A stretch of DNA of 64,000 nt. Origin: Kordia aestuariivivens. Its GTDB lineage: Bacteria; Bacteroidota; Bacteroidia; Flavobacteriales; Flavobacteriaceae. The stretch is taken from positions 310,001-374,000 of the forward strand of contig NZ_JACGWS010000001.1 of the NCBI RefSeq assembly GCF_014397005.1, given 5' to 3'. Positions 33,352 through 48,427 of the stretch are shown here, piece after piece (position 1 is the stretch's first letter; every line of letters starts with the position of its first letter). Under the pieces are notes generated by a model that had not been told where the DNA came from, ran no database searches, and saw only the letters and a program-made list of their open reading frames with translations. The translations under genes were made by a program, and so were the position numbers.

Positions 33352-34060
33352 TTGGAATCTCATAAAAGGAATAATAATCGCGTCAGTTTTGATCTTTCTG
33401 TATGCTTTTTCGGCGAACAGAAACGCCACGCGTGTGATTGGAAATCCGGATGTGAAATACCACGATGGAGCACAATATTTCATCACGCGCACGATGGTTA
33501 ATAAATTGTTAATACAAAATAATGATAGTGTTACGAACATACGAAAAGATCAGTTAGATTTGGATGTTCTAGAGGAGCGTTTACGCGCGAACGAAATGAT
33601 TCAAGATGCAGAAGTGTATCTGTCTGTAAATGGGACTCTTGGTGCAAAAATTAAGCAGCGAACACCAATTGCTCGGATTGCAACTAAAGACTCTTATTAT
33701 GTAGATTCTGAAGGAAAGGCGATGCCTTTATCTAAAGTTTCTGCTGCTCGTGTTCCTTTTGTAGAAGGAAAAGTGGATAAAAAAGCGTTAGAAAGTATAT
33801 ATGTATTGTCAAAATATATCGCTGAAGATGATTTTCTAAAAAAGAACGTTATCACCATCGTACAAAACGAAAATAAAACATTCAATCTAAAATTAAGAAC
33901 GAATGATTTTATAGTACTATTTGGTAACATTGAAAATATTGAAAAGAAGGTGAGTAATTTGAAAGCGTTTTATAAGAAAGCTGTAAAAGACAAAACGTTG
34001 AATGATTATGCGAAAGTTGATTTAAAATTTACCAATCAAGTAGTTTGCACCAAAAAATAA
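33341..34060 (+). CDS. ftsQ: Cell division protein FtsQ
   Basis: FtsQ is the bitopic scaffold of the divisome. The 239-aa protein has a short cytoplasmic N-terminus, one transmembrane helix (about residues 8-24, IKGIIIASVLIFLYAFS) and a periplasmic region that fits a POTRA domain (LLIQNNDSVTNIRKDQLDLD) followed by the FtsQ beta domain (YVDSEGKAMPLSKV, FVEGKVD). The start is TTG at 33341 within the end of murC, so translation is probably coupled. The call is supported by position between murC and ftsA. Confidence 0.9.
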   Translation: MKINWNLIKGIIIASVLIFLYAFSANRNATRVIGNPDVKYHDGAQYFITRTMVNKLLIQNNDSVTNIRKDQLDLDVLEERLRANEMIQDAEVYLSVNGTLGAKIKQRTPIARIATKDSYYVDSEGKAMPLSKVSAARVPFVEGKVDKKALESIYVLSKYIAEDDFLKKNVITIVQNENKTFNLKLRTNDFIVLFGNIENIEKKVSNLKAFYKKAVKDKTLNDYAKVDLKFTNQVVCTKK

Positions 34061-34063
34061 GTC

Positions 34064-35413
34064 ATGGAAAACAATAATATCGCAGTAGGATTAGATATAG
34101 GAACCACGAAAATCGTGGCAATGGTTGGGCGAAAAAATGAATACGGGAAGCTCGAAATTCTTGGAGTTGGAAAATCCAAGAGTTTGGGTGTGCATCGTGG
34201 TGTGGTAAATAATATTACACAAACAATTCAATCCATACAACAAGCAGTACAAGAAGCAGAAAGTGATGCTGACAATAAAATAACAGAAGTAGTAGTTGGA
34301 ATTGCTGGACAGCACATTCGTAGTTTACAGCATAGCGATTATATAACGCGTAGCAATGCAGATGAAGTAATAGATGAAGAAGATATTGACTTACTCATCA
34401 ATCAAGTATACAAATTAGTGATGCTTCCTGGCGAAGAAATTATTCACGTGCTTCCACAAGAATATAAAGTGGACGGACAAGCCGAAATAAAAGAACCCAT
34501 AGGAATGTACGGCGGACGACTGGAAGCAAATTTTCATGTCGTAGTTGGACAAGTATCATCGATTAGAAACATTGGAAGATGTGTAAAAAGTTCAGGGTTA
34601 GACTTAGCCGGAATTACCTTGGAACCTTTAGCATCTGCGAATGCAGTATTAAGTCAAGAAGAAAAAGAAGCAGGAGTTGCTTTAATTGATATTGGAGGTG
34701 GAACGACAGATTTGGCAATTTTTAAAGACGGAATCATTCGCCATACGGCAGTAATTCCATTTGGTGGAAATGTCATCACAGAAGATATTAAAGAAGGTTG
34801 CTCTATTATAGAAAAACAAGCAGAATTACTCAAAATAAAATTTGGATCTGCTTGGCCAGGAGAAAATAAAGACAACGAAATTGTCTCGATTCCTGGATTA
34901 CGTGGAAGAGAACCAAAAGAGATTACATTAAAAAATCTCTCAAAAATCATTCATGCTCGTGTGGTGGAAATCATAGAACAAGCGTACTTAGAAATTAAGA
35001 ACTACGGACATGAAGAACAAAAGAAAAAACTAATTGCAGGAATTGTGTTGACAGGTGGCGGAAGTCAGTTGAATCACTTGAAACAATTAGTAGAATACAT
35101 TACAGGAATGGACACACGAATCGGTTATCCAAACGAACATTTGGCAGGCGATTCAGATGCAGAAATGGCGAGTCCATTATATGCAACAGCTGTCGGACTT
35201 GTAATGAATGCAGTAGAAAACCAATCAAAAGTTGTCGTTGAAGAAGAAGTTGTGGAACAACCTACAGAAACAATTTCAGACGCAGAAACGTCACTCGAAG
35301 ACGACGCAGAACATACCAATGCTCCAATACAATCGGAACCCAAAAAAGAACGAAAATCGATCTTTGAAAAATGGGCCGATAAGTTGAAAGATTTTTTAGA
35401 TAACGCAGAATAA
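34064..35413 (+). CDS. ftsA: Cell division protein FtsA
   Basis: FtsA is an actin-like ATPase that tethers FtsZ filaments to the membrane. The 449-aa protein has the phosphate-1 motif VGLDIGTTKIVAMVG at residues 8-22, the 1C domain, VALIDIGGGTTDLAIFKDG (phosphate-2) and GIVLTGGGSQLNHLKQLVEY (adenosine motif). An acidic, poorly conserved stretch (about 385-430) precedes the C-terminal amphipathic helix KSIFEKWADKLKDFLDNAE, the membrane-targeting sequence. It is 18 bases from ftsZ. Confidence 0.96.
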   Translation: MENNNIAVGLDIGTTKIVAMVGRKNEYGKLEILGVGKSKSLGVHRGVVNNITQTIQSIQQAVQEAESDADNKITEVVVGIAGQHIRSLQHSDYITRSNADEVIDEEDIDLLINQVYKLVMLPGEEIIHVLPQEYKVDGQAEIKEPIGMYGGRLEANFHVVVGQVSSIRNIGRCVKSSGLDLAGITLEPLASANAVLSQEEKEAGVALIDIGGGTTDLAIFKDGIIRHTAVIPFGGNVITEDIKEGCSIIEKQAELLKIKFGSAWPGENKDNEIVSIPGLRGREPKEITLKNLSKIIHARVVEIIEQAYLEIKNYGHEEQKKKLIAGIVLTGGGSQLNHLKQLVEYITGMDTRIGYPNEHLAGDSDAEMASPLYATAVGLVMNAVENQSKVVVEEEVVEQPTETISDAETSLEDDAEHTNAPIQSEPKKERKSIFEKWADKLKDFLDNAE

Positions 35414-35431
35414 AAAAACAGTTAAAGAATT

Positions 35432-37372
35432 ATGAGTAGCAACACAGAATTCGGAAACATTTCATTTGATTTACCAAAAAACCAATCAAATGTAATTAAA
35501 GTGATCGGTGTAGGCGGTGGCGGAAGTAACGCTATCAACCACATGTTCCAGCAAGGAATAAAAGGAGTAGATTTTGTCATCTGTAATACAGATTCACAAG
35601 CTTTACAAAACAGTACAGTGCCTAATAAAATTCAATTAGGAGTTTCACTGACGGAAGGATTGGGCGCAGGCGCGAATCCGGAAGTTGGAGAAAAAGCAGC
35701 ATTGGAAAGTATTGAAGAAATTAGCACGATGCTAGATACCAATACAAAAATGGTATTTATCACGGCTGGAATGGGCGGTGGAACAGGAACAGGAGCAGCT
35801 CCGGTGATTGCAAAACTTGCCAAGGATAAAGACATATTAACGGTTGGTATTGTTACGATTCCTTTCAATTTTGAAGGGAAAATGCGTAATACGCAAGCAC
35901 GCATTGGAGTGGAAAAACTACGTTCGCATGTAGATTCGCTCATTGTAATCAATAACGACAAACTAAGAGAAGTTTACGGAAACTTAGGTTTCAAAGCAGG
36001 ATTCTCCAAAGCAGATGAAGTACTTTCTACGGCTTCCAGAGGAATTGCAGAAGTAATTACGCATCACTATACGCAAAATATTGACTTGCGCGATGCGAAA
36101 ACGGTATTATCAAATAGTGGAACGGCAATTATGGGATCGGCAAATGCTTCTGGTGCAAACCGAGCAAGCGAAGCAATCATGAAAGCGTTAGATTCTCCAT
36201 TATTAAATGATAATAAAATAGCTGGAGCTAAAAACGTATTGTTGCTTATCGTTTCTGGTTCAGAAGAAATCACGATTGATGAAATCGGAGAAATCAACGA
36301 TCATATTCAGACCGAAGCTGGTGGTGTTGCAAACATCATTATGGGTGTTGGAGAAGATGAAACGTTGGAAGATGCAGTTTCGGTAACGATTATTGCTACT
36401 GGTTTTGATACTGATCAGCAGGATGAAATCGTGAATACGGAATCAAAAAAAATCATTCATACTTTGGAAGATGAGCAGCGTGCTGTTCAAGATTTAACGC
36501 CGAAGACAACTGCGGTGGTTACGCCAAACATTTTACAACAACCTGTGGAAGATGTAACGCCAAAAAAAGCGGAAGTAATTCGTCACACATTAGTAGATGA
36601 TACTGCGACATTAAATTTAATTCCAACAACGGAATTGATTAAAAATATGTCTGTAATATATGAAGAAGTAGCAGCGCCAATTGCTGAAGACGATTTCATT
36701 ATTACCTCAATGACAGATGAAATCAGAGCGATTGAAGTAAACGATCCAGAATTTGTGACTGCAGCAACAAAAGAAGCTGAAGAAGAAGAAAATCAGATCG
36801 CTTTTACATTTGATATGCCATTGGCAAATCCGGTTGCTGAAGAAACTCCAGTGAAAGAAGAGAATATCATTAAATTTGAATTGACTTCTGAAGATGTAAA
36901 TGCTATGGAAGTGACAGATCATGTAGAAGTAATTCCTGTGACAGAAGTGCATGACAAAGGTGTCACGCGTTACAGTTTGGATGACTATATGGACGAAGAT
37001 TCGGCAAAAGAAAAAAATATCCCAAAAGCGGCTGAAGATGGTATAGTTTTTGAGAAGAAAACAATCGAAGATTCTGATAAGAAAGAGGATGCTGTTGATG
37101 AAGGAAATCCATTCAATGCTACTATTGAGGAAAGCTTAAAAAGTAGAGTGGACGAACGCAGAAGAAAATTAAAAGAATTTAATTATAAATTCAATAATAA
37201 TGTCAATCGTATTGAAGAAATTGAGAAGCAACCAGCGTACAAAAGAGCTGGTATAGAACTTGATGAAACCAATACGGCAGACAATGCTTCCCGCACCAGT
37301 TTGGGTACGGATAGTAATGATGATATGCAATTAAGAAGCAATAATTCTTTTTTGCATGATAACGTTGACTAA
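35432..37372 (+). CDS. ftsZ: Cell division protein FtsZ with long C-terminal linker
   Basis: FtsZ is the tubulin-like GTPase of the Z ring. The GTPase core covers about 15-320, with IKVIGVGGGGSNAINHM and the tubulin signature GMGGGTGTGAAP near 112-123. The 646-aa length far exceeds E. coli FtsZ (383 aa). Residues 325-646 are a long acidic linker, and a short basic segment (VDERRRKLKEFNYKF) lies near 570-584. Such tails are usual in Flavobacteriia. The extreme C-terminus does not show the canonical IPxFLR-like peptide, so the site contacting FtsA is not evident. It is the last gene of the dcw cluster and is followed by a terminator. Confidence 0.96.
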   Translation: MSSNTEFGNISFDLPKNQSNVIKVIGVGGGGSNAINHMFQQGIKGVDFVICNTDSQALQNSTVPNKIQLGVSLTEGLGAGANPEVGEKAALESIEEISTMLDTNTKMVFITAGMGGGTGTGAAPVIAKLAKDKDILTVGIVTIPFNFEGKMRNTQARIGVEKLRSHVDSLIVINNDKLREVYGNLGFKAGFSKADEVLSTASRGIAEVITHHYTQNIDLRDAKTVLSNSGTAIMGSANASGANRASEAIMKALDSPLLNDNKIAGAKNVLLLIVSGSEEITIDEIGEINDHIQTEAGGVANIIMGVGEDETLEDAVSVTIIATGFDTDQQDEIVNTESKKIIHTLEDEQRAVQDLTPKTTAVVTPNILQQPVEDVTPKKAEVIRHTLVDDTATLNLIPTTELIKNMSVIYEEVAAPIAEDDFIITSMTDEIRAIEVNDPEFVTAATKEAEEEENQIAFTFDMPLANPVAEETPVKEENIIKFELTSEDVNAMEVTDHVEVIPVTEVHDKGVTRYSLDDYMDEDSAKEKNIPKAAEDGIVFEKKTIEDSDKKEDAVDEGNPFNATIEESLKSRVDERRRKLKEFNYKFNNNVNRIEEIEKQPAYKRAGIELDETNTADNASRTSLGTDSNDDMQLRSNNSFLHDNVD

Positions 37373-37402
37373 TTAGATTTAGTACTATTATATATGTTTT
37401 TT

Positions 37403-37445
37403 AGACCCGGGAATTGCTGTTCTATTTCCGGGTTTAATTTTTTAC
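37403..37445 (+). terminator. Terminator of the dcw cluster after ftsZ
   Basis: ACCCGG (37405-37410) pairs with CCGGGT (37428-37433), extended inward by GAA/TTC pairing, followed by TTTAATTTTTT. It lies 30 bases after the ftsZ stop. Confidence 0.75.
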
Positions 37446-37473
37446 CTCTAAAACATTTTAAAACAAAGAAATC

Positions 37474-37926
37474 ATGGGATTACAACAAGATATAATGACA
37501 GCGCTAAAAACGGCAATGAAAGCTAAAGATCAAGTAGCTTTAGCGGCATTACGTGCAGTGAAATCTGAAATACTCTTAGCGCAAACCAAAAGTGGTGCTA
37601 AAGAAGAGTTGACAGAAGAAGAAGAAATCAAATTATTGCAAAAATTAGTAAAGCAGCGTAAAGACAGCGCGGCAATTTATTTGGAACAAGACAGAAAAGA
37701 TTTAGCACTTCCTGAGATTGATCAGGCAGAGGTGATTAGTCAATTTTTACCAGAGGCTTTAAGTGAAGAAGAAATCGAAAAAGTGGTCGTAATGACTATT
37801 GACGCTGTTGGCGCTTCGGGAATGAAAGACATGGGAAAAGTGATGGGAATTGTTTCTAAAGAATTAGCAGGTCAGGCAGATGGAAAAACCATTTCTACCA
37901 TTATAAAAGCTAAATTAGCGAATTAA
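37474..37926 (+). CDS. GatB/YqeY domain protein
   Basis: The 150-aa cytoplasmic protein is a stand-alone YqeY domain, related to the tRNA-binding tail of GatB. Typical features are MTALKTAMKAKDQVALAALR at the N-terminus, EEEIKLLQKLVKQRKDSAAIY in the middle and MKDMGKVMGIVSKELAGQADG near the C-terminus, whose helical tail can bind tRNA. Its cellular role is not established. It sits between the ftsZ terminator and tRNA-Arg, as in many Flavobacteriia. Confidence 0.93.
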   Translation: MGLQQDIMTALKTAMKAKDQVALAALRAVKSEILLAQTKSGAKEELTEEEEIKLLQKLVKQRKDSAAIYLEQDRKDLALPEIDQAEVISQFLPEALSEEEIEKVVVMTIDAVGASGMKDMGKVMGIVSKELAGQADGKTISTIIKAKLAN

Positions 37927-37975
37927 TATAATTTCAATAAAATAACATAAGATTCTCACTTTCGTGGGAATGCAC

Positions 37976-38049
37976 GGCCTCGTAGTTCAACTGGATAGAA
38001 TATCAGATTTCGGCTCTGAGGGTTGGGGGTTCGAATCCCTTCGAGGTCA
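37976..38049 (+). tRNA. tRNA-Arg (anticodon TCG)
   Basis: A full cloverleaf folds over 74 bases: acceptor GGCCTCG / CGAGGTC with discriminator A; D stem GTTC / GAAT; anticodon stem TCAGA / TCTGA with loop TTTCGGC, giving anticodon TCG (codon CGA); and T stem GGGGG / CCCTT with loop TTCGAAT. CCA is not encoded. Its 3' end marks the left border of the accessory island, where the last nine bases belong to a repeat copied at 42729 onward. Confidence 0.95.
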
Positions 38050-38107
38050 CAGAAATTGTAAAAACCTGTAATTTAAAAGATTACAGGTTTTTGTTTTTAT
38101 ACCCGAG
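38041..38107 (+). repeat. Direct repeat, left copy (tRNA 3' end plus terminator), candidate attL
   Basis: These 67 bases cover the end of the tRNA-Arg acceptor stem and its downstream hairpin. They align with 42729-42796 with six substitutions and one single-base indel. A duplicated tRNA 3' end flanking foreign genes is the usual footprint of site-specific integration. Confidence 0.65.
38061..38092 (+). terminator. Terminator downstream of tRNA-Arg
   Basis: AAAACCTGTAAT pairs with ATTACAGGTTTT around a short AT-rich loop, and a T-rich tail follows. Confidence 0.75.
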
Positions 38108-38201
38108 AGAATGGTTTTTATGTAAGTTTTTGATTTTTAAATAGTTTAAAGGTTAGAACTTTATGAATGACCAAAATGATGACTGTCAGCCGCTGACTTT
38201 C

Positions 38202-38678
38202 CTAGTAATAAAATTCCATTCCATATTCGCTAGCTACACTATATATATTATTAATTCTAGATTGATATTTTTCTTCTTCTCCAATTTCTGATATTCCTTT
38301 TATAGCACTATCAAACATTTTTTCAATAGATATGTAATAATTCTCGTCAGAATACCCGAAATCTTGAATTATCTCTAAGCAACATTCTACATAATACAAT
38401 TCCAGTTCAACGTTTAGTTCCGTGATTTTCATTTTGCGCACAGTTCGTATTATTTTCCTAGCCTCTGTTTCTCGTAAGATCATTTCTCTTCCACTTGGAA
38501 AAACATACCGCTCAATTTCCTTTTTATATTTTTCAATAAGAGTTTCTATTTTCATTCCAGAAAAAACATCTAGAAATTCTTTGGCAGACGGAATCTTTGA
38601 GTACATTTCTGATATGAGTTTAATCATTTCAGATTTGTCCATTTTATGAAGTTCTTTTTTTAAATCTCTTAATCTCAT
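38202..38678 (-). CDS. DUF6155-like hypothetical protein
   Basis: The 158-aa soluble, charged, mostly helical protein begins MRLRDLKKELHKMDKSEMIK and continues with LISEMYSKIPSAKEFLDVF. I associate this N-terminus with DUF6155, a small family of unknown function in Bacteroidota and Firmicutes. There are no catalytic motifs, signal peptide or membrane segments. It lies just inside the left end of the island, reading toward the tRNA. Its role may be regulatory or accessory, but nothing in the sequence decides this. Confidence 0.7.
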   Translation of the reverse strand: MRLRDLKKELHKMDKSEMIKLISEMYSKIPSAKEFLDVFSGMKIETLIEKYKKEIERYVFPSGREMILRETEARKIIRTVRKMKITELNVELELYYVECCLEIIQDFGYSDENYYISIEKMFDSAIKGISEIGEEEKYQSRINNIYSVASEYGMEFYY

Positions 38679-38890
38679 GTAAGTAAATAAGTTTTTAATA
38701 TCGCTCGTTTATTGTATTTTTTATTTCAATAATTAAATTATCAAATATCAACAAAATATAAAATTCGTTAAAATTTTCATGAGGAAAGCGATATTAATAA
38801 TGAATTATTCAAATAATTGGTATTTCGTTTTAAACAATTCCACTTAAATGAGTAATTCAATATTTGAATTCTATCTTAAAAAATATATAG

Positions 38891-38919
38891 TACATTCAAT
38901 ATGAGAATTTTTGAATGTA
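38891..38919. promoter_or_regulatory. Perfect inverted repeat upstream of the toxin-antitoxin genes
   Basis: TACATTCAA (38891-38899) and TTGAATGTA (38911-38919) are perfect inverted copies with an 11-base spacer. They lie about 30 bases before a TATATTTG -7 element at 38952-38959. An operator bound by the antitoxin is plausible by analogy with other type II modules. The remainder of the 303-base gap 38679-38981 is AT-rich with nothing else recognisable. Confidence 0.45.
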
Positions 38920-38981
38920 TTTTATCTTTATTAAATATGCCATAATTTGTTTATATTTGACAGTATATCAATTCATGTATC

Positions 38982-39227
38982 ATGGGAGCAATTGAATTAA
39001 GAAATAAAATAATTGAAATTATTAACTCGTCAGATGAACGGTTTTTACGAATGGTAAGTGCATTGCATAAAACGTATTCTGAACAAGAGACTACTGATTT
39101 CTATGACGAACTCCCTAAAGAAATTCAAGAAATTCTTATGGAAAGTAGAGATCAAGCTCGTCAAGGTAAGACACGCTCACATAAAGAAGTAATGGATGAT
39201 TTTCGAAAGAAATATGATATAGCTTAA
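38982..39227 (+). CDS. Putative antitoxin of a type II toxin-antitoxin module
   Basis: The 81-aa acidic protein (MGAIELRNKIIEIINSSDER, then a helical DELPKEIQEILMESRDQARQ) resembles the short addiction-module antitoxins that accompany ParE/RelE-like toxins. These have an N-terminal dimerisation helix pair and a C-terminal toxin-binding arm (HKEVMDDFRKKYDIA). No clear ribbon-helix-helix or HTH is visible. It is seven bases upstream of the toxin gene with its own -7 element at 38952. Identification rests mainly on this pairing. Confidence 0.8.
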   Translation: MGAIELRNKIIEIINSSDERFLRMVSALHKTYSEQETTDFYDELPKEIQEILMESRDQARQGKTRSHKEVMDDFRKKYDIA

Positions 39228-39234
39228 TACGCTT

Positions 39235-39540
39235 ATGAATGTTATATGGACACCAACTGCTGAATTATCATACGCAAAAGAATTAGACAAAATCAATAAA
39301 AAATGGTCAGTTAATGAAATTATGGACTTTATGAATTTAGTTGATGATTTTGTTAAAAAATTGGAGTCAGGAATAATTGAAGGTAAAGTATCACAGAAAA
39401 CAAATTTACGCTCATTTGTAATCTCCAAACAAACAACATTGTATTTTGATGTTTTTGAAGATACTCAAACCATAGAACTACTGCTATTTTGGAATAATAA
39501 AGATAATCCGAAAGAGTTAAAAGAATTTTTAAATATTTAA
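39235..39540 (+). CDS. RelE/ParE-superfamily toxin
   Basis: The 101-aa protein has the RelE/ParE pattern: an N-terminal strand VIWTPTAELSYAKELDKINK, two helices, then a beta-sheet with LRSFVISKQTTLYFDVFED and the C-terminal TIELLLFWNNKDNPKELK. The latter fits the sheet plus final helix in which active residues usually lie. RelE-type members cleave mRNA on the ribosome and ParE-type members poison gyrase. Which applies here is unclear because the catalytic Arg/His/Tyr set of RelE is not obvious. It forms a two-gene operon with the preceding antitoxin. Confidence 0.82.
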   Translation: MNVIWTPTAELSYAKELDKINKKWSVNEIMDFMNLVDDFVKKLESGIIEGKVSQKTNLRSFVISKQTTLYFDVFEDTQTIELLLFWNNKDNPKELKEFLNI

Positions 39541-39610
39541 TTTCAGGATTTTAATTTATCTTTTTCCATACAAACTAATTCCATATATTTAGTCATATAC
39601 AATAAACATA

Positions 39611-42604
39611 TTGGAAAGTAATGATGGAAATACAGATTTGCTAAATCTCTTTCGTTCTTTATTTAAAGGGCGTGAAGATGTATTTGCATTACGATGGGAG
39701 AAAGGCAATAAAAGTGGTTATACTCCAGCGTATTCTTATGATCCTTATATGTATCGTCTTCACAAGCAAAGAGGCGGAACTTTTAAAGACTACAAAGATA
39801 AAACCTATGTGAGATTAGATAATTTGAATCTCTCTAAACATCTAAAGGGAGAAAAATATATTGGAATATATCCACTTTTGAAAAATAATACTTCATGGTT
39901 TATTGTTGCTGATTTTGATAAAGGTGGTTGGCAAGAACAATCTAGAAAAGCTATTGAAGTCTGCAACAAAAATAATATTCCAGCGTATTTAGAACGTTCT
40001 CGTTCGGGAAATGGTGGGCATGTGTGGATATTTTTTGAAGAACCTTATGCTGCTATTAAAAGTAGAAAAATCATATTGAAACTTTTTGAACAAGCAGGAA
40101 TTTTCTCTGTATTTGATAGAAATACAAGTTTTGATCGATTATTTCCAAATCAAGATTATTTATCAGGTAAAGGGTTAGGAAATCTTATAGCACTTCCCTT
40201 TCAAGGACAGGCTTTACAAAATGGAAACTCTTGTTTTATAAGTATTAATACATTTACACCTTATGAAGATCAATGGGGATTTTTGAAAACCATTAAAAAA
40301 ATTTCTACTGTTTCTCTGGATTCAATTTTTAAAAAGACATTTAAAAAAAAAGACAATAAAAGTGATTTTAATGTTAGTGTTACAAATTTTGGAAAATTAG
40401 AATTCGCACTAAAGAATAGTATTGTCATTAATCGAAATGGTTTAGCTCCCGCAGTAATCAATTTCCTCAAAGAAAACCTAAATTCTTTCAATGCTGATTA
40501 TGCAATAAAAAAGAAAACAGGAAGAAGTACTTGGAAGACGGATCGTTATTTTAAGCTTATTGATGAAACTGAAAATGCTATAGAAATTCCAAGAGGATTT
40601 ATAGGAAATTTGATTCGTTTTTGTAAACAACAAGGTGTTGAATATGAATTTATAGATCAAAGAAAACGTCTAAAAAATGTTGAATTCTTATCTTCAATTC
40701 AATTATTGAAACATCAACATGCTCCATTAGAAATAGCATTAAAAAAAGATTTTGGAATTATTGTAGCCCCACCTGGTTCTGGAAAAACAATTATTGGCTT
40801 AAAAATTATAGAACACAAGAAGCAACCAGCATTAATTATTACACATCGGAAACAGATAGCAGAACAATGGATCAGTAGAATTGAAACTTTTTTTGGTATT
40901 CCAAAAAGAGAGATCGGGAAAATTGGTCAAGGAAAAATAAAAATCGGAAAACACATTACTGTTGCATTAATTCAGACTTTAGGAAAAAAACTGACTGATG
41001 AAGATAATCTATTAACATCTGCTTTTGGAACAATCATTATAGACGAATGTCATCATATTCCTGCGAAATCTTTTCGTGAAGTTGTTCACAAACTTTCACC
41101 ATATTACCAATACGGATTGACAGCCACTCCTTTTCGTAAAAACAATGATGAAAAACTACTTTTTGTGTATTTAGGTAATATCATTTCAGAGATAAAACCT
41201 CAAGATATTGATAATTATAAAAAGGCTAGAATTGTAATTCGAGATACGCATTTGAATATTCCTTTTAATTCTAAAACAGATCGATTTGAAACACTTTCAA
41301 AAATACTCATCCATGATTCTGAAAGAAACAAACTCATATTAAATGATGTTCGACATGAGTTAAATAATGGTAGAAAGGTGGTACTTATCACAGAACGAAA
41401 AGAGCATGTCCTAGTACTTTATCAATATCTAAAAAGTCAATATGAAACTATTCCTATCTCAGGAGAAGATAGCTCTGCTTTAAGAACTTTAAAATGGAAC
41501 AGTATTGAAAAAGGTGACTTTCAAGCTATCATAACCACAGGTCAATTTTTCGGTGAAGGAGTTGATATTCAAAGTATATCTTGTCTATTTTTAGTCTATC
41601 CTTTTGCATTTAAAGGCAAGTTAATTCAATATATTGGAAGAGTCCAACGGTCTGAATTAACACCTGTAATTTATGATTATCGAGACAAACATATTCCGTA
41701 TCTAAACAAACTATTTTTAAAACGGAATAGCTATTATCGAAATCTTGATCGACAAGCTACACTATTTGATGACTTTAAAGAAAGTTTAGAGTCAAAAATG
41801 AATCTAAACAATGATATTGATAAGTTCATTAAAGTTGCTATTAATGATCTAGACTTTCACTATGGTATGGTTTGTTTTTCGTATAAATTATCAAATGAAA
41901 CATTACTACAATTAGAAATCGAAAATGAAGAGATGCAGCCTGAATTTGTAGTATTAAAACCATATTTTTCCAAAATTCTAAGCTCTAAATCTATTACAGT
42001 ACACATTCAAATTGGATTAGAAAATGGATTGATTGTTTCTCAAATAGCTACTTCAGAAGATATTAATCGTATAAATAAAGAAATTATAGATAGTATAAAA
42101 TTTCAATTTGTTGAACAACAATTTATTAAGAGCAAAAAGTATAAAAGTGATGATATAGTAGAAAAAACTTCTAAATCAATTGACTCTTTATTTGGTTCAG
42201 AAGAGAATCTCTTAAAAAGCCTTTTAATAAACAGTAAATTTGTTCATCATAAACAGTTATTTTATTTGTCAAGATATCATCAATACAAAAAACTAAAAAT
42301 CAGATTTGTACTACATCCATTTTCATTTGTTTTTTTATTAGAAGGTGAACACAAATATCATATAGTTTTGGAAACCTTAGATACTAAAGAAGCGACTTAT
42401 GTTTGGCATCTTCCCAAAAATAACTTTCATTTTAAGAAGCAATTAGAATCAATAAATAAAAAACTGAATTGGATTCGTAATAATGGCCGTCAATCTTTTT
42501 TGGAAACTAAAAATGATAATTTCAGTAAAGTTATTCATGATTATAGTGAAGACAAAAAAGGATTCTATAAATGGAAAAATGCTTTGGAAGAACGGTTGAT
42601 TTAA
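39611..42604 (+). CDS. Archaeo-eukaryotic-type primase fused to SF2 helicase (TOTE conflict-system-like)
   Basis: The 997-aa protein has two recognisable parts. Residues 20-230 look like the primase (AEP) domain known from TOTE conflict systems: YPLLKNNTSWFIVADFDKGG with the metal-binding Asp101-x-Asp103, RSRSGNGGHVWIFFEE with the GGH motif (135-137), and NLIALPFQGQ. Residues 365-690 are a DEAD-like helicase with Walker A APPGSGKT (386-393), DECH (478-481), GLTATPF (502-508) and the motif VI region QYIGRVQRS (673-681), all intact. The last 300 residues are unassigned. The start appears to be TTG at 39611, as nearby ATGs are out of frame. Family members are thought to act in defence against phages or plasmids. 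It is the largest gene of the tRNA-bounded island. Confidence 0.85.
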   Translation: MESNDGNTDLLNLFRSLFKGREDVFALRWEKGNKSGYTPAYSYDPYMYRLHKQRGGTFKDYKDKTYVRLDNLNLSKHLKGEKYIGIYPLLKNNTSWFIVADFDKGGWQEQSRKAIEVCNKNNIPAYLERSRSGNGGHVWIFFEEPYAAIKSRKIILKLFEQAGIFSVFDRNTSFDRLFPNQDYLSGKGLGNLIALPFQGQALQNGNSCFISINTFTPYEDQWGFLKTIKKISTVSLDSIFKKTFKKKDNKSDFNVSVTNFGKLEFALKNSIVINRNGLAPAVINFLKENLNSFNADYAIKKKTGRSTWKTDRYFKLIDETENAIEIPRGFIGNLIRFCKQQGVEYEFIDQRKRLKNVEFLSSIQLLKHQHAPLEIALKKDFGIIVAPPGSGKTIIGLKIIEHKKQPALIITHRKQIAEQWISRIETFFGIPKREIGKIGQGKIKIGKHITVALIQTLGKKLTDEDNLLTSAFGTIIIDECHHIPAKSFREVVHKLSPYYQYGLTATPFRKNNDEKLLFVYLGNIISEIKPQDIDNYKKARIVIRDTHLNIPFNSKTDRFETLSKILIHDSERNKLILNDVRHELNNGRKVVLITERKEHVLVLYQYLKSQYETIPISGEDSSALRTLKWNSIEKGDFQAIITTGQFFGEGVDIQSISCLFLVYPFAFKGKLIQYIGRVQRSELTPVIYDYRDKHIPYLNKLFLKRNSYYRNLDRQATLFDDFKESLESKMNLNNDIDKFIKVAINDLDFHYGMVCFSYKLSNETLLQLEIENEEMQPEFVVLKPYFSKILSSKSITVHIQIGLENGLIVSQIATSEDINRINKEIIDSIKFQFVEQQFIKSKKYKSDDIVEKTSKSIDSLFGSEENLLKSLLINSKFVHHKQLFYLSRYHQYKKLKIRFVLHPFSFVFLLEGEHKYHIVLETLDTKEATYVWHLPKNNFHFKKQLESINKKLNWIRNNGRQSFLETKNDNFSKVIHDYSEDKKGFYKWKNALEERLI

Positions 42605-42984
42605 AATTTGAATAAAATCAATTCTAGCCTAAATCAAAGTTGAGAAACATTAAACAGTGAGAAATGCTCTTTCACAAACACCCCAATCTCTCTCAAATCC
42701 TCCACCAAAAAGTTCGAACTTTGAAGGTTCGGGCTCACAAAAATTGTAAAAACATGTAATTTAAAAGATTACATGTTTTTTGTTTTTATACACGAGCGGA
42801 TATTATTTTATAGCTTGTTAATATTCAATAATCTAAGAATTTTATTTTTCACTCTTAATTCCATTTAGATTATATATTAGTTTTAAGTCAAATTTATTTA
42901 TTTTTAGTTTATCTGTCGGTATATTTCAAATATGGTAATAAAGATTTTTAAAATGACTTGAAAAATTCTATTATTGATTTGTCC
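42605..42984. other. Non-coding right border of the island
   Basis: This 380-base gap has no credible ORF. It contains a C-rich strand stretch (42678-42708), a 14-base perfect palindrome AAAGTTCGAACTTT at 42709-42722, the right copy of the tRNA-end repeat (42729-42796) and AT-rich DNA beyond it. Confidence 0.6.
42729..42796 (+). repeat. Direct repeat, right copy, candidate attR
   Basis: This repeats 38041-38107, beginning TCGGGCTCAC (left copy TCGAGGTCAC) and ending GTTTTTATACACGAG. The hairpin inside is preserved although two bases changed: ACATGTAAT / ATTACATGT here against ACCTGTAAT / ATTACAGGT on the left, a compensated pair. Confidence 0.65.
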
Positions 42985-43461
42985 TTATGTTGCCTTTGAT
43001 TTCATCATCGAGAGTATTTCTTGAAATCTAGGATTATTAGTTAAATTCATAAATGAATCTTGTTTTTTATACCATTCAAAATCAATAAAGCCCTTTTCTA
43101 CTGCTTTTTTAAAATAATCTAAGGCTTTATCTATATCTTGAATTATTGAATAATAAAGACTCCTATTCCTATACGTTCTCCAATCATCCGGAAATAACTT
43201 TTCGTGCTTACTAAAGGATGAATACGCTAATTTCATTTTTCCTTGCTTGACATATGTAAGGCCTATATTATTGTGATAATTGTTCTTATCCACAGAAGGA
43301 ACCGCAACTGCAGCAGAAATTATATGCTCATGGGGAACAATAGATGTAGAAGCTGGACCGATTAATTCTTCTACAAAAAGAAAATGGGCGCAATTATTTA
43401 ATGAATCAACAATTTCATACTTTGAAAACTCTATAACACTTGGTGTAGCAATACGCTGCAT
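42985..43461 (-). CDS. TPR-repeat protein, possibly truncated
   Basis: The 158-aa protein has two tetratricopeptide-like units at about 60-130 (NYHNNIGLTYVKQGKMKLAY and WRTYRNRSLYYSIIQDIDKA, DYFKKAVEKGF). It ends in a segment resembling the TPR end-of-group pattern (WYKKQDSFMNLTNNPRFQEI). The N-terminal 55 residues are unassigned and there is no signal peptide. TPR arrays are normally longer, so this could be the surviving end of a larger gene beside the island border. The function would be protein-protein contact. It is isolated and on the minus strand. Confidence 0.65.
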   Translation of the reverse strand: MQRIATPSVIEFSKYEIVDSLNNCAHFLFVEELIGPASTSIVPHEHIISAAVAVPSVDKNNYHNNIGLTYVKQGKMKLAYSSFSKHEKLFPDDWRTYRNRSLYYSIIQDIDKALDYFKKAVEKGFIDFEWYKKQDSFMNLTNNPRFQEILSMMKSKAT

Positions 43462-43564: not shown

Positions 43565-43607
43565 ATGTGTAAAACTTAGTGTTTAACTAAAACTATAACG
43601 ACTTCTA

Positions 43608-44042
43608 TCATAACTTTAAAAATGCCGTACCATCTTCGAGTTGAGATGCTAATTCTTTCAAAGTAGTAGCGTCTAATATCGTTTTAAGATCTGCTCTCAC
43701 TGCTTTAAACTTATCGTGAAGCGGGCAAGGTTTCAATGCACTACATTCAGACAAACCCAATCCACATCTGTTATAGACAGCGTCTCCATCGATAGCTTTT
43801 ACAATAGCTGTGAGTTTTGTTTGATGCAAACCTTCTTCGGAAATCTCAAATCCTCCGTATGGACCTTTTACAGATTTTATAATTTTTGCTTTCACTAATT
43901 TTTGTAAAATCTTTGCTGTAAAAGCACTAGGGGAATCTATTGCGATGGCAATAGCTGTGTTGCCAACTCTTTCGTCTTTACTCGATTTCATGGCTATAAA
44001 AATAAGAGCCCTTATGCCATATTCACACGCTTTAGAAAACAT
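43608..44042 (-). CDS. Rrf2-family regulator with Fe-S cysteines (NsrR-like)
   Basis: The 144-aa protein has the Rrf2 winged-helix domain (CEYGIRALIFIAMKSSKDER, SPSAFTAKILQKLVKAKIIK, SVKGPYGGFEISEEG) and the three-cysteine cluster CGLGLSECSALKPC (Cys93, Cys100, Cys106). In NsrR and IscR such cysteines hold a [2Fe-2S] or [4Fe-4S] cluster sensing NO or iron-sulfur status. The gene is divergent from the nitrous oxide reductase cluster, which makes a nitric-oxide or redox sensor controlling that cluster likely, though this is inferred from context. Confidence 0.92.
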   Translation of the reverse strand: MFSKACEYGIRALIFIAMKSSKDERVGNTAIAIAIDSPSAFTAKILQKLVKAKIIKSVKGPYGGFEISEEGLHQTKLTAIVKAIDGDAVYNRCGLGLSECSALKPCPLHDKFKAVRADLKTILDATTLKELASQLEDGTAFLKL

Positions 44043-44081
44043 AGTTTATGTATAAAATTAATACTGCAAATATATAAAAGA

Positions 44082-44141
44082 TAAAAACGTCCTTTATATG
44101 ATAAAAGTCATTTTTTCTCTTTTTTTTCTTACCTAAATTTG
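44082..44141 (+). promoter_or_regulatory. Candidate Rrf2 operator and -7 element of the nos cluster
   Basis: TAAAAACGTCCTTTA at 44082-44096 is a partial dyad of the kind bound by NsrR-like proteins and lies between the divergent regulator and the cytochrome gene. TAAATTTG at 44134-44141 fits the -7 element, with a leader of about 34 bases before 44182. The operator call is speculative. Confidence 0.35.
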
Positions 44142-44181
44142 AAATGTTAAAATGAGTATTAACAAATAATACCTTTATATA

Positions 44182-44670
44182 ATGACTAGAATAATCAAGT
44201 TAACTTTCCTCTTACTATTAGGAATATTAGTAAGCTGTGGAGGAAAAGAAGAGAAGAAAAAAGGGGAAATTCAAATAGGCAAAAACTCTAAAGTTGAGAC
44301 TAAAAATGAAACGCCCGCATCCAAAAGAATAACGCTGGATAATAAAGGTGTTGGGAAAATTAAATCGCTCACGCTAGATGCTACTATCGACAATGCAATG
44401 GTAGAAAGAGGCGCAGCACTCTTTAAAACAAACTGTGCAGCATGTCACAAAATAGACAAACGTTTTATAGGACCTAACCCAACTGGGATACTAAAACGTA
44501 GAAGTCCCGAATGGATTATGAATATGATTCTAGATCCAAAATTAATGACCGAAGAAGATCAATGTGCAAAAGATTTATTGATTGAGTTTAATGGTGCTGC
44601 AATGGCAAACCAAAATATGACAGAAGCGCAAGCACGTGATATTCTAGAATACTTCAGAACACTTAAATAA
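44182..44670 (+). CDS. c-type cytochrome lipoprotein of the nos cluster
   Basis: The 162-aa product has a lipoprotein signal (LLLLGILVSC, Cys19), a disordered Lys/Glu-rich linker and a class I cytochrome c domain with one haem site CAACH (Cys85, Cys88, His89). The axial Met lies in FNGAAMANQNM (Met141 or Met146). It is probably tethered to the outer face of the inner membrane or the inner face of the outer membrane. It would pass electrons to N2O reductase. It is the first gene of the cluster, eight bases ahead of the fasciclin gene. Confidence 0.9.
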   Translation: MTRIIKLTFLLLLGILVSCGGKEEKKKGEIQIGKNSKVETKNETPASKRITLDNKGVGKIKSLTLDATIDNAMVERGAALFKTNCAACHKIDKRFIGPNPTGILKRRSPEWIMNMILDPKLMTEEDQCAKDLLIEFNGAAMANQNMTEAQARDILEYFRTLK

Positions 44671-44677
44671 TAACCTT

Positions 44678-45250
44678 ATGAAAACCATCCATGTATTAAA
44701 AGTAATTACTGTAGCCGTATTTCTTGTTGTTCTTTACAGTTGTAAAAACGAAGGGAAACAAGAAAATACTTCTATTCAAACTTCCCAAAAAGCTGTTTCC
44801 GATAGTCAAAAAGGGCAAGCCTTTATAGCAGATGATAGTTCTACGCCCAATGTATTGCAAATTGCTATAAAATCACCAGATCATACCACACTTGTAGCTG
44901 CAGTGCAAGCGGCAAGTTTAGAAAATGTATTGGTAAATGCAGGTCCTTTAATGGTATTTGCACCTACAAATGAAGCTTTTGCAGCCTTACCTGAAGGAAC
45001 CGTGGAAGAATTACTAAAACCTGAAAACAAGCAAAAATTAGCTACTATTTTAAAGCATCACGTAACTGCGGGAAACTACGATAAAAACTTTTTAAAGAAT
45101 TTTAAAAAACTAGGTCAAGCAGATGATACAAGCGTAAAAGTAGAAGTAAAAGGAGACGATGTATACGTTGGCGGTGCAAAAATACTAGCAAGTGTAAAAG
45201 CGGGTAATGGTATTGTGCATGTAGTAGACAAAGTGATTTTACCTGAATAA
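44678..45250 (+). CDS. Fasciclin-domain lipoprotein
   Basis: The 190-aa product has a lipoprotein signal (VVLYSC, Cys22) and one FAS1 domain (about 55-190) with the two conserved blocks FAPTNEAFAALPEGTVEELL (H1) and GNGIVHVVDKVILPE (H2), plus the intervening HHVTAGNYD. FAS1 domains usually mediate adhesion or protein contacts. Lying between the cytochrome and nosZ in the same direction, it is probably co-transcribed, and may act as an assembly or docking factor for the reductase rather than in adhesion. That role is inference from position. Confidence 0.9.
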   Translation: MKTIHVLKVITVAVFLVVLYSCKNEGKQENTSIQTSQKAVSDSQKGQAFIADDSSTPNVLQIAIKSPDHTTLVAAVQAASLENVLVNAGPLMVFAPTNEAFAALPEGTVEELLKPENKQKLATILKHHVTAGNYDKNFLKNFKKLGQADDTSVKVEVKGDDVYVGGAKILASVKAGNGIVHVVDKVILPE

Positions 45251-45277
45251 ACGAATAATAACTAAACTTTAGAACAA

Positions 45278-47242
45278 ATGATAAAATATAAATTTCAATT
45301 AGGATCACTCTTTATTGCCTTAATGCTTCTTACAAGCTGTGGTAATAACAATGGTCAAAAAGGATCGAGTGGTGCATTAAATTCCAGTGCGGCAGAAAAA
45401 GTATATGTGGCTCCTGGAGAACAAGACGAGTTTTATGCTTTCATGTCTGGTGGATATAGTGGTAACTTAACGGTTTATGGTTTACCTTCCGGTAGAATGT
45501 TCAAAGAAATACCAGTATTCTCTCAATTCCCAACTTCGGGTTATGGGTATTCTGAAGAAACAAAACCGATGTTACAAACCTCTCATGGTTTTGTCCCTTG
45601 GGATGATTCGCATCACCCAGATATTTCTCAAACAAACGGAGAACTAGATGGACGCTGGATTTTTATCAATGGAAACAATACGCCAAGAATTGCGAGAATA
45701 AGTTTGACCACTTTTGAAACGGAAGAAATCATTGAAGTGCCAAACAGTGCAGGTAATCACAGTTCCTCATTTGTAACAGAAAACACAGAGTATGTAGTAG
45801 CTGGAACCCGATTTTCGGTGCCAATTCCACAGCGTGACATGCCCATAAACGAGTACAAAGGAAACTTCAAAGGATCTTTATCATTCATCAGTGTTGATCC
45901 AGAACACGGTCACATGGATATAAAATTCCAGATCATAATGCCTGGTTTTAACTATGATCTTTCACATCCAGGACGTGGAAAATCACACGGTTGGTTCTTC
46001 TTTACAACGTATAATACAGAAGAGGCGAGTACATTACAAGAAGTAAACGCTTCTCAAAATGATAAAGACTTTATAGCTGCGATCAATTGGAAAAAAATTG
46101 AAGCATATGTTAACAATGGTGGCGGAACAAAAATGCCTGCTAACTATGCACACAACGTTTACGATGAAGGAACGCACACAGCAACGACAACAATGAAAAA
46201 AGAAGTGCTTACGGTAAATCCTTTAGATGTGCCTGGCGCAGTATACTTTTTGCCTACGCCTAAATCGCCTCACGGTTGTGATGTTGATCCATCAGGGCAA
46301 TACATCATTGGTAATGGAAAGCTTTCTGCGGATTTAACAGTACATTCATTTGATAGAATGATAGAAGCGATAGAAGGCAAAAAATTTGACGGTGAAGCCT
46401 ATGGGATTCCTATCTTAAAATTTGAAGACGTACTTGCAGGAACTGTAAAAAGTGGTGGTTTAGGACCGCTTCATACAGAATTTGATGGAAAAGGGAATGC
46501 GTATACGACGTTCTTTATCTCTTCGGAAGTTGTAAAATGGAAACTCGGAACTTGGGAAGTAATCGATAGAAAACCAACGTATTACTCTGTAGGACACTTG
46601 ATGATTCCGGGAGGGAATTCCGCAAAACCATTTGGAAAATATGTAGTTGCCTTAAATAAAATTACAAAGGATAGATATTTGCCTACAGGTCCAGAAATGG
46701 AGCATTCAGCACAGATTTATGATATCTCTGGAGAAAAAATGGAACTTCTCTATGATTTCCCTACACACGGAGAACCACATTATGCAGCTGGATGTCCCGC
46801 AAGTTTACTAGCACCAAAATCTAAAAAGCTGTATCGATTAGATGAAAACAAACATCCGTATGCAGTCACAAGTCCAGATCAGGCAAAAGTAGTCAGAAAC
46901 GGGAAAGAAGTACATGTTTACATGTCTACCATACGAAGTCACTTTACACCAGATAACATAGAAGGTGTAAAAGTAGGAGACAAAGTATATTTCCACATCA
47001 CAAACCAAGAGCAAGATTTTGATGTTCCTCACGGTTTCGCAATGATAGGACAGAATACTTCTGAATTACTCATCATGCCAGGACAAACGAAAACTTCGGT
47101 TTGGGAACCTAAGCAAGTAGGGGTTTGGCCTTTCTATTGTACAGATTTTTGCTCGGCACTTCACCAAGAAATGCAGGGTTATGTTAGAGTTTCTCCCGCA
47201 AATTCTGATTTAGAATTAAGTTGGTCTCTAGGTGGAGATTAA
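45278..47242 (+). CDS. nosZ: Nitrous oxide reductase, clade II (Sec-dependent)
   Basis: NosZ reduces N2O to N2 in the periplasm as a respiratory terminal oxidase. The 654-aa protein has a lipoprotein/Sec-type signal (LMLLTSC, Cys21) and no twin-arginine motif, the mark of clade II. The propeller domain holds the His-rich CuZ ligands (PWDDSHHPD, FVTENTEY, SPHGCDVDPSG, GPLHTEFDG, GEPHYAAGCP). The C-terminal cupredoxin domain holds the CuA site YCTDFCSALHQEM (Cys622, Cys626, His630, Met633) and an upstream ligand His in DVPHGFAM. All expected ligands appear present, so the enzyme should be functional. A hairpin follows the stop. Confidence 0.97.
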   Translation: MIKYKFQLGSLFIALMLLTSCGNNNGQKGSSGALNSSAAEKVYVAPGEQDEFYAFMSGGYSGNLTVYGLPSGRMFKEIPVFSQFPTSGYGYSEETKPMLQTSHGFVPWDDSHHPDISQTNGELDGRWIFINGNNTPRIARISLTTFETEEIIEVPNSAGNHSSSFVTENTEYVVAGTRFSVPIPQRDMPINEYKGNFKGSLSFISVDPEHGHMDIKFQIIMPGFNYDLSHPGRGKSHGWFFFTTYNTEEASTLQEVNASQNDKDFIAAINWKKIEAYVNNGGGTKMPANYAHNVYDEGTHTATTTMKKEVLTVNPLDVPGAVYFLPTPKSPHGCDVDPSGQYIIGNGKLSADLTVHSFDRMIEAIEGKKFDGEAYGIPILKFEDVLAGTVKSGGLGPLHTEFDGKGNAYTTFFISSEVVKWKLGTWEVIDRKPTYYSVGHLMIPGGNSAKPFGKYVVALNKITKDRYLPTGPEMEHSAQIYDISGEKMELLYDFPTHGEPHYAAGCPASLLAPKSKKLYRLDENKHPYAVTSPDQAKVVRNGKEVHVYMSTIRSHFTPDNIEGVKVGDKVYFHITNQEQDFDVPHGFAMIGQNTSELLIMPGQTKTSVWEPKQVGVWPFYCTDFCSALHQEMQGYVRVSPANSDLELSWSLGGD

Positions 47243-47258
47243 TGACTAAATATTTCAA

Positions 47259-47284
47259 AGCAGGCAGTTTAAAGACTGCCTGCT
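47259..47284 (+). terminator. Intercistronic hairpin after nosZ
   Basis: AGCAGGCAGT pairs perfectly over ten bases with ACTGCCTGCT around a six-base loop. It lies 17 bases after the nosZ stop and lacks a strong T run. It may partially terminate, or protect the nosZ messenger 3' end. Confidence 0.6.
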
Positions 47285-47348
47285 TATATCTCATATATTT
47301 TATAGGAATGCTTTTTATAAAAGCGTAATCTCAATAACTCTTACTAAG

Positions 47349-47963
47349 ATGAAAAAAGCCAGTATTCTGATGATCCTTGGTGCCTTACTATTAATGGGCT
47401 TATTTCAATTTCCTTTATGGAATATCATGCTAGGCGCACCGCAATATCCAGAACCATTAGGAATGAATATCTATATTGATGGAATCCAAGGAATGAACGA
47501 ATTTGATATTCAAAATATAGACGGACTGAATCATTATATAGGAATGAAAACAATTCCGAAAGCTATTGATATGTGGGAATTTGAAGTCTTCCCAATCGTT
47601 ATTGCAAGTATGTCAATAATAGGTGTTATTATAGGACTCTTCGGCTATTTTGGGAAAGTAAGTCACCATTGGTTTCTAGGTTGGTTGCTAGTAATAACCA
47701 TTCTAGGGGTTTTAGGGATGTATGATTTCAATGCTTGGATGATAGATTATGGAACAAACTTAGATCCGAATGCCATTATGAAACTCCAAAATCCTGATGG
47801 TACAGCTATGAGTTATAAACCGCCGTTGCTTGGACATCAAAAATTACTAAACTTTGATGCGTATTCATATCCGCGTTTGGGAGGTTATCTTATGGGAGCA
47901 GGAATGTTTCTCACGTTTATTGCCTATTTTCTTGGGAAAAAATCAAAAACAATCAACACATGA
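47349..47963 (+). CDS. nos-cluster integral membrane protein
   Basis: The 204-aa protein has four predicted transmembrane helices (about 6-22, 78-98, 106-122 and 178-196) with a periplasmic loop (YPEPLGMNIYIDGIQGMNEF) and a second loop containing PPLLGHQKLLNFDAYSYP. His and Met residues in the loops could handle copper or quinone. I do not know a named family, but similar small membrane proteins occur between nosZ and nosL in clade II clusters. It may route electrons or help copper-site assembly. It overlaps nosL by four bases. Confidence 0.75.
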   Translation: MKKASILMILGALLLMGLFQFPLWNIMLGAPQYPEPLGMNIYIDGIQGMNEFDIQNIDGLNHYIGMKTIPKAIDMWEFEVFPIVIASMSIIGVIIGLFGYFGKVSHHWFLGWLLVITILGVLGMYDFNAWMIDYGTNLDPNAIMKLQNPDGTAMSYKPPLLGHQKLLNFDAYSYPRLGGYLMGAGMFLTFIAYFLGKKSKTINT

Positions 47964-48403
47964 AAAATCTACATAACATCGCCGTTGGTATTTTAGTATT
48001 TCTACTGATGAGTGCTTGCAATACAAATCCTAAACCAATTGATTACGGAAATGACGGTTGCCACTTTTGTAAAATGACCATCGTTGATAAAATTCATGGA
48101 TCTGAATTGATCACAGATAAAGGAAAAGTATTCAAGTTTGACGCTACCGAATGTATGCTAAATTATATGGCAGAAACCAAAGACCTTCAAATAGGAAACA
48201 TACTTACAAATTATTATGAAGCGCCAACCGAATTAATAAAAACTCAGGAAGCAACTTTTTTGATCAGTGAAAATTTGCCAAGCCCTATGGGAGCCTATTT
48301 AACTGCATTTGAAAACACTGCGAATGCTGAAAAAGTTCAAGCTGAAAAAGGAGGGAAGCTATACAATTGGGAAGCATTAAAAGCACATTTACACAAAAAA
48401 TAA
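47960..48403 (+). CDS. nosL: Copper chaperone lipoprotein NosL
   Basis: NosL is a lipoprotein copper chaperone for NosZ maturation. The 147-aa product has a lipobox (FLLMSAC, Cys20) and the metal-binding core YGNDGCHFCKMTIVD, with the CxxCxM arrangement typical of the family. The NosL domain continues with KFDATECMLNYMAE and ends in GGKLYNWEALKAH. It is translationally coupled to the preceding membrane protein gene and followed by nosD. Confidence 0.94.
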   Translation: MKNLHNIAVGILVFLLMSACNTNPKPIDYGNDGCHFCKMTIVDKIHGSELITDKGKVFKFDATECMLNYMAETKDLQIGNILTNYYEAPTELIKTQEATFLISENLPSPMGAYLTAFENTANAEKVQAEKGGKLYNWEALKAHLHKK

Positions 48404-48427
48404 TATTGCTAGCACTATAATTTAATC

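Follow-up and report, generated by a model that had tools for sequence, protein, structure and literature searches.

Additive flexible genomic islands are formed by cassettes at tRNA genes that carry a repeat of the tRNA sequence at their end and vary largely through site-directed recombination, according to the extracts used here of three papers, on Alteromonas (PMC5217437), on 'Ca. Actinomarinales' (PMC7771536) and on fGI-2 of the Methylophilaceae (PMC10872708). The extract of PMC10872708 also mentions, at second hand, the Tycheposons of Prochlorococcus, cargo islands at tRNA genes that contain a tyrosine recombinase. In this study we analysed 64,000 nucleotides of Kordia aestuariivivens DNA (genome G000; this whole stretch is called the window), in which the gene for tRNA-Arg(TCG) is followed by a segment of accessory genes. 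This segment, positions 38051-42738, is most probably an integrase-less mobile gene cassette that was inserted at a tRNA-Arg 3′ end by a factor acting in trans and was later exchanged homologously via its shared ends.

Additive flexible genomic islands are the closest known kind, and the window case works like them. As far as the extracts go, both have cassettes that come and go at tRNA genes, end in a direct repeat of tRNA sequence and pass between species and genera. Locus content is variable here too (12 loci, 11 genomes), and a tRNA repeat stands at the far end, the 9-mer of the window cassette being that of tRNA-Arg(TCT). Unlike the islands in those extracts, the cassettes described here have a shared non-tRNA repeat at the right end and a small set of exchangeable terminators, and use three tRNA-Arg isoacceptors as one target set; no description of these three features was found in the extracts of the literature searched, which also held nothing on TOTE or on tRNA-Arg cassettes in flavobacteria. 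As for site-directed recombination, the junctions here are abrupt, no enzyme was found, and the breakpoints of a recent event fit homologous recombination. Judged by the extract, Tycheposons share the tRNA border but differ in their tyrosine recombinase, as the window has no PF00589 match. The locus also departs from a classical tRNA-targeting integrative element, since in place of a duplicated target 3′ end the right copy closes with nine bases of tRNA-Arg(TCT), and no integrase lies next to an attachment site (att).

Cis-mobilizable and integrative mobilizable elements (CIMEs and IMEs) are att-bounded islands without a recombinase of their own that accrete in tandem. The cassettes likewise lack a recombinase of their own and accrete in tandem, but there is no long att pair and no conjugation relic among the island genes, and the ends, a repeat and terminator modules, differ from those of integrase elements at tRNA-Arg(TCT). 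Integron cassettes are promiscuous, share one conserved end repeat, carry toxin-antitoxin and defence-like cargo and form arrays. One conserved end repeat, such cargo and arrays are likewise seen here; however, the platform is a tRNA-Arg gene, and the repeat does not, by eye, show the attC consensus. No IntI was identified in a search with PF00589 only, no attC or IntI model having been run.

Results

Ends of the cassette

The gene for tRNA-Arg(TCG) lies behind yqeY at all 12 yqeY loci of the 11 genus genomes, each of which has the gene and one of which (G006) holds two copies (features of the window locus are given in Table 1). A scan of 37900-43000 against Rfam at the gathering threshold gave a tRNA as the sole match. 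An earlier note, made from the letters alone, had read the region behind this tRNA as an accessory island bounded by a duplicated 3′ end of the tRNA gene, with six substitutions and one indel. The repeat is as described: 38040-38107 recurs at 42728-42796 over 69 columns, with 62 matches, six substitutions and one gap (E 2.8e-19 in a search of the genome). The right-hand copy, however, does not duplicate the 3′ end of this tRNA. It consists of two parts, a repeat that we call rep to the left of '...TCAC' and a terminator module, module B, to the right of it, from 42739; module B begins directly after TCAC behind tRNA-Arg(TCG) too, at 38051, and is also met after further tRNA-Arg genes and after rep copies. 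Rep is not a tRNA and has in common with the tRNA-Arg 3′ end the final bases only. The right-hand copy ends ...TCGGGCTCAC, as does the tRNA-Arg(TCT) of this genome, whereas tRNA-Arg(TCG) ends ...TCGAGGTCAC. The right-hand copy is a member of a repeat family, and a third copy accordingly exists in the genome (G000:C4:54742-54818, 1.3 kb from an Imm35-type immunity gene).

Both module B copies of the window form the same 13-bp hairpin, with a compensatory change of a C-G pair in the first to an A-T pair in the second. Folding of all 18 module B copies predicts the hairpin in 17, of which four (L076, L077, L096 and one in L216) show mismatches or a bulge; the remaining copy (L053, G009) has lost it. 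The reverse strand of rep can be read as a peptide (~VTPNLQSSNFLVEDLREIGLFVKEH), which is met at 86 places in the 11 genomes (E <= 1), and its variation shows a mild third-position excess (mean entropy 1.08 vs 0.96 and 0.87; 48 copies); no full-length gene was found in the loci inspected, and rep was not taken as a protein gene. Diverged rep-like copies (L229 4176-4595, L095, L104, L094 and L103) occur with no listed tRNA-Arg nearby, and several have a different right end, ~GAAACCTTGGGTTTAGA, which is why rep may derive from, or be the source of, a wider dispersed repeat.

Table 1. Features at the tRNA-Arg(TCG) locus, in window positions
Feature	Position	Strand	Remarks
yqeY	37474..37926	+	last conserved gene ahead of tRNA-Arg(TCG)
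tRNA-Arg(TCG), target gene	37976..38050	+	ARAGORN, Rfam RF00005; ends ...CGAGGTCAC at 38050
terminator module B, first copy	38051..38107	+	cassette left end; hairpin arms 38060-38072, 38080-38092
DUF6155 protein, 158 aa	38202..38678	-	PF19652, E 2.4e-9; 3′ part 38202-38280 diverged from G005
left identity breakpoint vs G005	38281	.	identity 71-75% before it, 99-100% after it; falls within the end of the DUF6155 gene
putative antitoxin, 81 aa	38982..39227	+	position ahead of putative toxin
putative ParE/RelE-type toxin, 101 aa	39235..39540	+	Foldseek matches from a low-confidence model
TOTE-type primase-helicase, 997 aa	39611..42604	+	PF22548 E 9.8e-85; PF04851 E 1.4e-28
rep, cassette right-end repeat, 76 nt	42663..42738	+	ends GTTCGGGCTCAC; repeat family in the genus
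terminator module B, second copy	42739..42812	+	begins the next unit; hairpin arms 42748-42760, 42768-42780
TPR protein	42985..43461	-	next gene outside the cassette, accessory

The same island behind another tRNA-Arg gene

Genome G005 carries the DUF6155, toxin-antitoxin and TOTE genes behind tRNA-Arg(TCT) (L221). Over the interior, 38285-42684, identity between G000 and G005 is 99-100% in each of the 44 windows of 100 bases, whereas in ftsZ-yqeY DNA the two genomes agree to 81.7%. Given this difference between interior and core, the comparison indicates that the island has moved recently between tRNA-Arg sites. The right identity breakpoint falls within rep, at about 42716-42728; as the shared cassette ends contain both breakpoints, a homologous exchange of the interior would fit. 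The final bases of rep track the tRNA-Arg(TCT) of each genome, TCGGGCTCAC in G000 and TCGCGATCAC in G005. With an interior so recently transferred and its genes open, the suggestion that the island is a decayed element is not needed.

Junctions at TCAC

A first set comprised 71 junctions; upstream stands rep in 39, including one in G220, a genome of another genus, and tRNA-Arg or its end in the other 32. Five of the seven terminator modules, A, B, C, E and F, stand behind both tRNA-Arg and rep, the switch being at '...TCAC|'; modules D and G were found behind tRNA only, with a partial D match following rep in L324. A second set, restricted to the genus (38 rep and 33 tRNA junctions), was used for a comparison of tRNA with rep junctions in the 93 pairs that agree to at least 75% in the first 40 bases downstream. 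These pairs show an identity of 87.5% to the right of the junction, 78.6% in the final nine bases before it and 19.6% at -10 to -49; to its left, the run of identical bases has a median length of 4 nt and a maximum of 11.

Of the 38 rep 9-mers, 26 equal one of the seven tRNA-Arg ends of the genus, and 19 equal an end from their own genome, as against a mean of 9.6 with shuffled genome labels (0 of 10000 shuffles reached 19; the ACG end was added by hand for four genomes, and possible kinship of array members was ignored). Cassettes within arrays can bear a 9-mer unlike the one at their left, which points to a join at the very end of the tRNA. Short units of module A or C end in copies of the final 16 tRNA-Arg bases: 10 of 20 matches were so read, seven identical to a tRNA-Arg of their own genome (one matched by hand to the G002 TCG gene) and three with one to three mismatches, the others being chance matches, tRNA genes or longer pieces of a tRNA. 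Behind tRNA-Arg(ACG) in G005, three short units of this kind (166, 105 and 166 bp) form a stack.

Distribution of rep

The rep family was searched with 42680-42800 as query, scoring at most 40 candidates per genome; 39 of 80 matches, those running from query base 20 or before to base 54 or beyond, were accepted as reps, and the counts are lower bounds. Each of the 11 genus genomes has at least one rep. Same-strand positions downstream of tRNA-Arg(TCG, ACG or TCT), at 0.9-40.1 kb, account for 31 of the 39 reps and, by hand count, for 16 of 20 rep clusters; the tRNA-Arg list holds 35 of 37 pattern matches and omits G000:C42 and an orphan end in G003. By simple arithmetic, 1.5% of the places in a 5-Mb genome would fall within three stretches of 50 kb on a single strand.

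Among 299 sampled genomes of the family, with no more than three candidates scored for each in the matches considered, two matching genomes belong to the genus, and one genome outside it, G220, matched with one copy. This rep lies 1.9 kb behind tRNA-Arg(TCG), which follows genes read by eye as ftsA, ftsZ and yqeY. The family of cassettes with shared, swappable ends thus seems largely limited to one genus. Shortly behind the same kind of tRNA gene in G220 there is also a tandem array of a 116-bp unit (L317 7766-8277), whose consensus contains GATCAC.

Cargo genes

That accessory genes lie between the repeats was borne out for the DUF6155 protein and for the primase-helicase, in which an AEP-TOTE primase domain (284.2 bits for PF22548, against a curated cut-off of 27) is joined to ResIII/Helicase_C. 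The label of toxin-antitoxin pair is tentative: neither a Pfam match above cut-off nor an NCBIfam match was obtained, and the fold comes from a low-confidence, four-sequence model of the 101-aa protein with a mean predicted local distance difference test score (pLDDT) of 57, whose listed PDB matches are mostly toxins of the ParE/HigB/RelE type, ParE being the best at E 0.024 and none reaching E <= 0.001. A search of this sequence against PDB gave a K+ channel protein as best match (E 0.0012), which we do not believe. A whole-genome search found copies of the toxin that are at least 90% identical in four of the 11 genus genomes (G000, G001, G005 and G008), and diverged copies (31-49%) also in G000 and G008; the putative antitoxin is 91-100% identical in G005, G008 and G001.

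Among the best 80 of 94 TOTE loci outside the genus, the nearest relatives are in Aquimarina (76-78%). The DNA around these loci gave no toxin or antitoxin match and one weak DUF6155 match (E <= 1e-3), and their tRNAs no clear pattern. The island genes are open, their Pfam matches include no relic of a conjugative module, and the island has no integrase, as the earlier note had stated: the eight PF00589 matches of the genome (E <= 0.001) all lie outside the window.

Flanks of the cassette

The interior differs from its flanks in base composition, with a G+C content of 28.4% for 38281-42716 vs 37.1% for 30000-38050 and 34.3% for 43600-52000. On the left, where the earlier note had placed the core genes ftsZ-yqeY, yqeY is present in all 11 genus genomes. 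The right flank is not core, contrary to that note: the TPR gene occurs in two of 11 genus genomes, its own included, the other copy being weak and with an internal stop, and the protein at 45278-47242, which we take to be NosZ of the nos cluster named in the earlier note, also has a match in two of 11, counted in the same way, with the G002 copy located elsewhere.

In a comparison with related genomes, gene content behind the tRNA proved variable: with open reading frames (ORFs) of at least 70 aa and BLAST clusters at E <= 1e-6, the first gene after yqeY-tRNA-Arg(TCG) differs among the 12 loci, the one shared cluster being that of L037 and L044, the latter the second locus of G006. The tRNA-Arg(TCG) gene at this place itself varies strongly in the genus: the copies of the window, G008 and G009 are ~98.6% alike, and in six other genomes the aligned part is just 70-75% identical to the window copy.

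Other cassettes, arrays and integrase elements

A seven-gene cassette that includes a TPR/HATPase protein is shared by G005, where it lies behind tRNA-Arg(TCG), and G003, where it is part of an array, with 93% identity overall, a mosaic of interior windows at 68-100% and a core at 81.5%. A sugar-uptake cassette, with a TonB receptor and a sugar kinase (NCBIfam, below cut-off) and a regulator and transporter read by eye, occupies three sites: in G001 it lies behind TCG, in G008 within the ACG array and in G009 within the TCT array. A unit [B-TA-rep] behind tRNA-Arg(ACG) in G008 has the toxin-antitoxin pair (TA) as its only cargo. An arginine operon, named by eye, behind tRNA-Arg(TCG) in G010 and behind rep in G001 (76-80% identity) was not counted as a cassette.

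Twenty array ORFs, hand-picked from locus maps and including the integrase of the G003 element described below, were scanned with Pfam; the matches comprised a GmrSD_N protein, an NB-ARC/STAND protein, Imm35, LprI, a DDE transposase, and secreted and signalling proteins, while ten gave no Pfam family at E <= 0.01. On G000 contig C4 (L319, L033), two reps are found 27-28 kb downstream of tRNA-Arg(ACG) with module F, and the large genes in between are, by eye, those of nonribosomal peptide synthetases, so that an array may include a complete biosynthetic cluster. At G000:C44:50855-55037 (L233) tRNA genes are densely clustered, some of them scoring weakly; this cluster presumably resembles those of large phages.

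At G003:C152:13213-26685 (L219, L321) an element with a tyrosine integrase (Pfam) and a 43-nt tRNA duplication is located at tRNA-Arg(TCT). Its genes include some that look, by eye, like those of type I restriction-modification, and two rep cassettes stand behind it. In G010 an element end (G010:C39) at tRNA-Arg(TCT) is followed by module D, which lies directly behind tRNA-Arg(TCT) in G000, G001, G002, G006 and G009. These two elements may be helpers, but they are of another kind than the cassettes, as they repeat the tRNA from the anticodon arm and have no rep end. Behind a rep in G007 (L323 2399-3951), an ORF with a PF00589 match is preceded by one that, by eye, resembles the front part of the same integrase.

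Discussion

Taken together, these comparisons show a cassette with precise ends that moves between tRNA-Arg genes and between species. The intrinsic terminator at the left end would take over as terminator of the tRNA and keep tRNA transcription out of the cargo. This cargo comprises the DUF6155 protein, a putative ParE/RelE-like toxin-antitoxin pair and the TOTE primase-helicase, and the right end is formed by the conserved 76-nt rep closing with a tRNA-Arg-like 9-mer. In the proposed mechanism, the first insertion would have been a precise recombination at the tRNA-Arg 3′ end with the enzyme supplied in trans; later exchange, as the breakpoints suggest, would occur by homologous recombination in the shared ends, in the terminator or first gene on the left and in rep on the right, which is also the probable route of the recent transfer shared with G005. 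The integration at tRNA-Arg proposed earlier thus stands as horizontal acquisition at the 3′ end of a mobile unit with precise ends, because a near-identical island lies behind tRNA-Arg(TCT) in G005 and other cassettes lie at different tRNA-Arg genes; the duplicated 3′ end of the same tRNA does not. Since the mobile unit has no integrase, mobilisation in trans, as suggested in the earlier note, or by recombination is supported.

Several observations weigh against this account. No recombinase tied to the cassettes was found in the genus genomes studied, and no clean empty site for the window cassette among the genus loci, the sequence behind tRNA-Arg(TCG) varying between genomes. The final nine bases of the window rep match tRNA-Arg(TCT) and not the adjacent TCG gene. 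Fifteen of the 71 junctions have none of the seven modules, and the 93 tRNA/rep pairs overlap in members, array members being non-independent as well. Eight of the 39 reps have no adjoining listed tRNA-Arg, five forming one G002 array that starts at an orphan tRNA-Arg end and three lying on contigs without a listed tRNA-Arg. In G001 the toxin-antitoxin copy with module B (L322 7200-8100) stands beside a decayed piece of tRNA-Arg(ACG), as read by eye, and no rep was found next to it. Finally, the sugar-uptake cassettes are 84.6% and 89.5% identical to that of G001, where just a shortened rep is retained, with core values of 83.1% and 84.9%; as this divergence about equals that of the core, these moves are old.

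Homologous recombination alone, for example after transformation, is a possible though less likely explanation, in which swaps would run via homology in tRNA genes, terminators and reps with no site-specific enzyme. It would account for the absence of an integrase from the island, for the position of both breakpoints of the G000/G005 event inside the shared ends and for the mosaic interior of the seven-gene cassette. However, tRNA-Arg ends and reps share so short a run to the left of the junction, and yet five modules stand behind both, that homology leaves the repeated precise joins unexplained.

It is unlikely that the island is the remnant of a classical integrase element or a CIME which lost its integrase and persists as a fossil or is moved in cis by an integrated relative. 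Tyrosine-integrase elements do occur at the same kind of tRNA in G003 and, to judge by an element end, in G010, and the fragment with a PF00589 match follows rep in G007; against this, the cassettes end in rep, with ~9 nt in common with the tRNA, whereas those elements repeat it from the anticodon arm, and the interior moved recently with no integrase relic inside. That the locus is not mobile at all, and consists of ordinary accessory genes flanked by two copies of a common tRNA terminator that are unrelated to each other, is extremely improbable, for although the terminator family has many copies, the island is found with both its ends behind another tRNA-Arg in G005 with a 99-100% identical interior. 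Many loci of a terminator family had been named beforehand as a finding that would speak against integration; the family does occur at many loci, but as most of these are other tRNA-Arg cassette arrays, mobility is not refuted.

Within the preferred reading of an integrase-less cassette inserted in trans, we consider, with considerable doubt, an integron-like system in which a recombinase acting in trans joins [terminator-cargo-rep] units at the final bases of any of three tRNA-Arg genes or of an earlier cassette. If so, each unit would bring its own terminator, the tRNA would stay intact and insulated, and rep would mark the cassette end as attC does. A Y1 (IS200/REP-type) transposase was rejected as driver, PF01797 being present in six of 11 genomes and near none of the listed reps. 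Each of the 11 genomes has a strong PF00589 match (best E 2e-46 to 3e-44), presumably XerD, along with many scattered others; besides this strong match no further tyrosine recombinase is clearly present in all 11, and a genus-wide one was therefore set aside.

For the genus, which looks flavobacterial to judge by related proteins, the cassettes provide a traceable unit of gene flow. Defence-like genes (TOTE primase-helicase, STAND NTPase, GmrSD-type protein, toxin-antitoxin and immunity protein) travel in units with common ends, and so do signalling genes and a sugar-uptake operon. The shared ends make such cassettes findable in any genome of the genus, and thereby open the movement of integrase-less tRNA islands to direct test.

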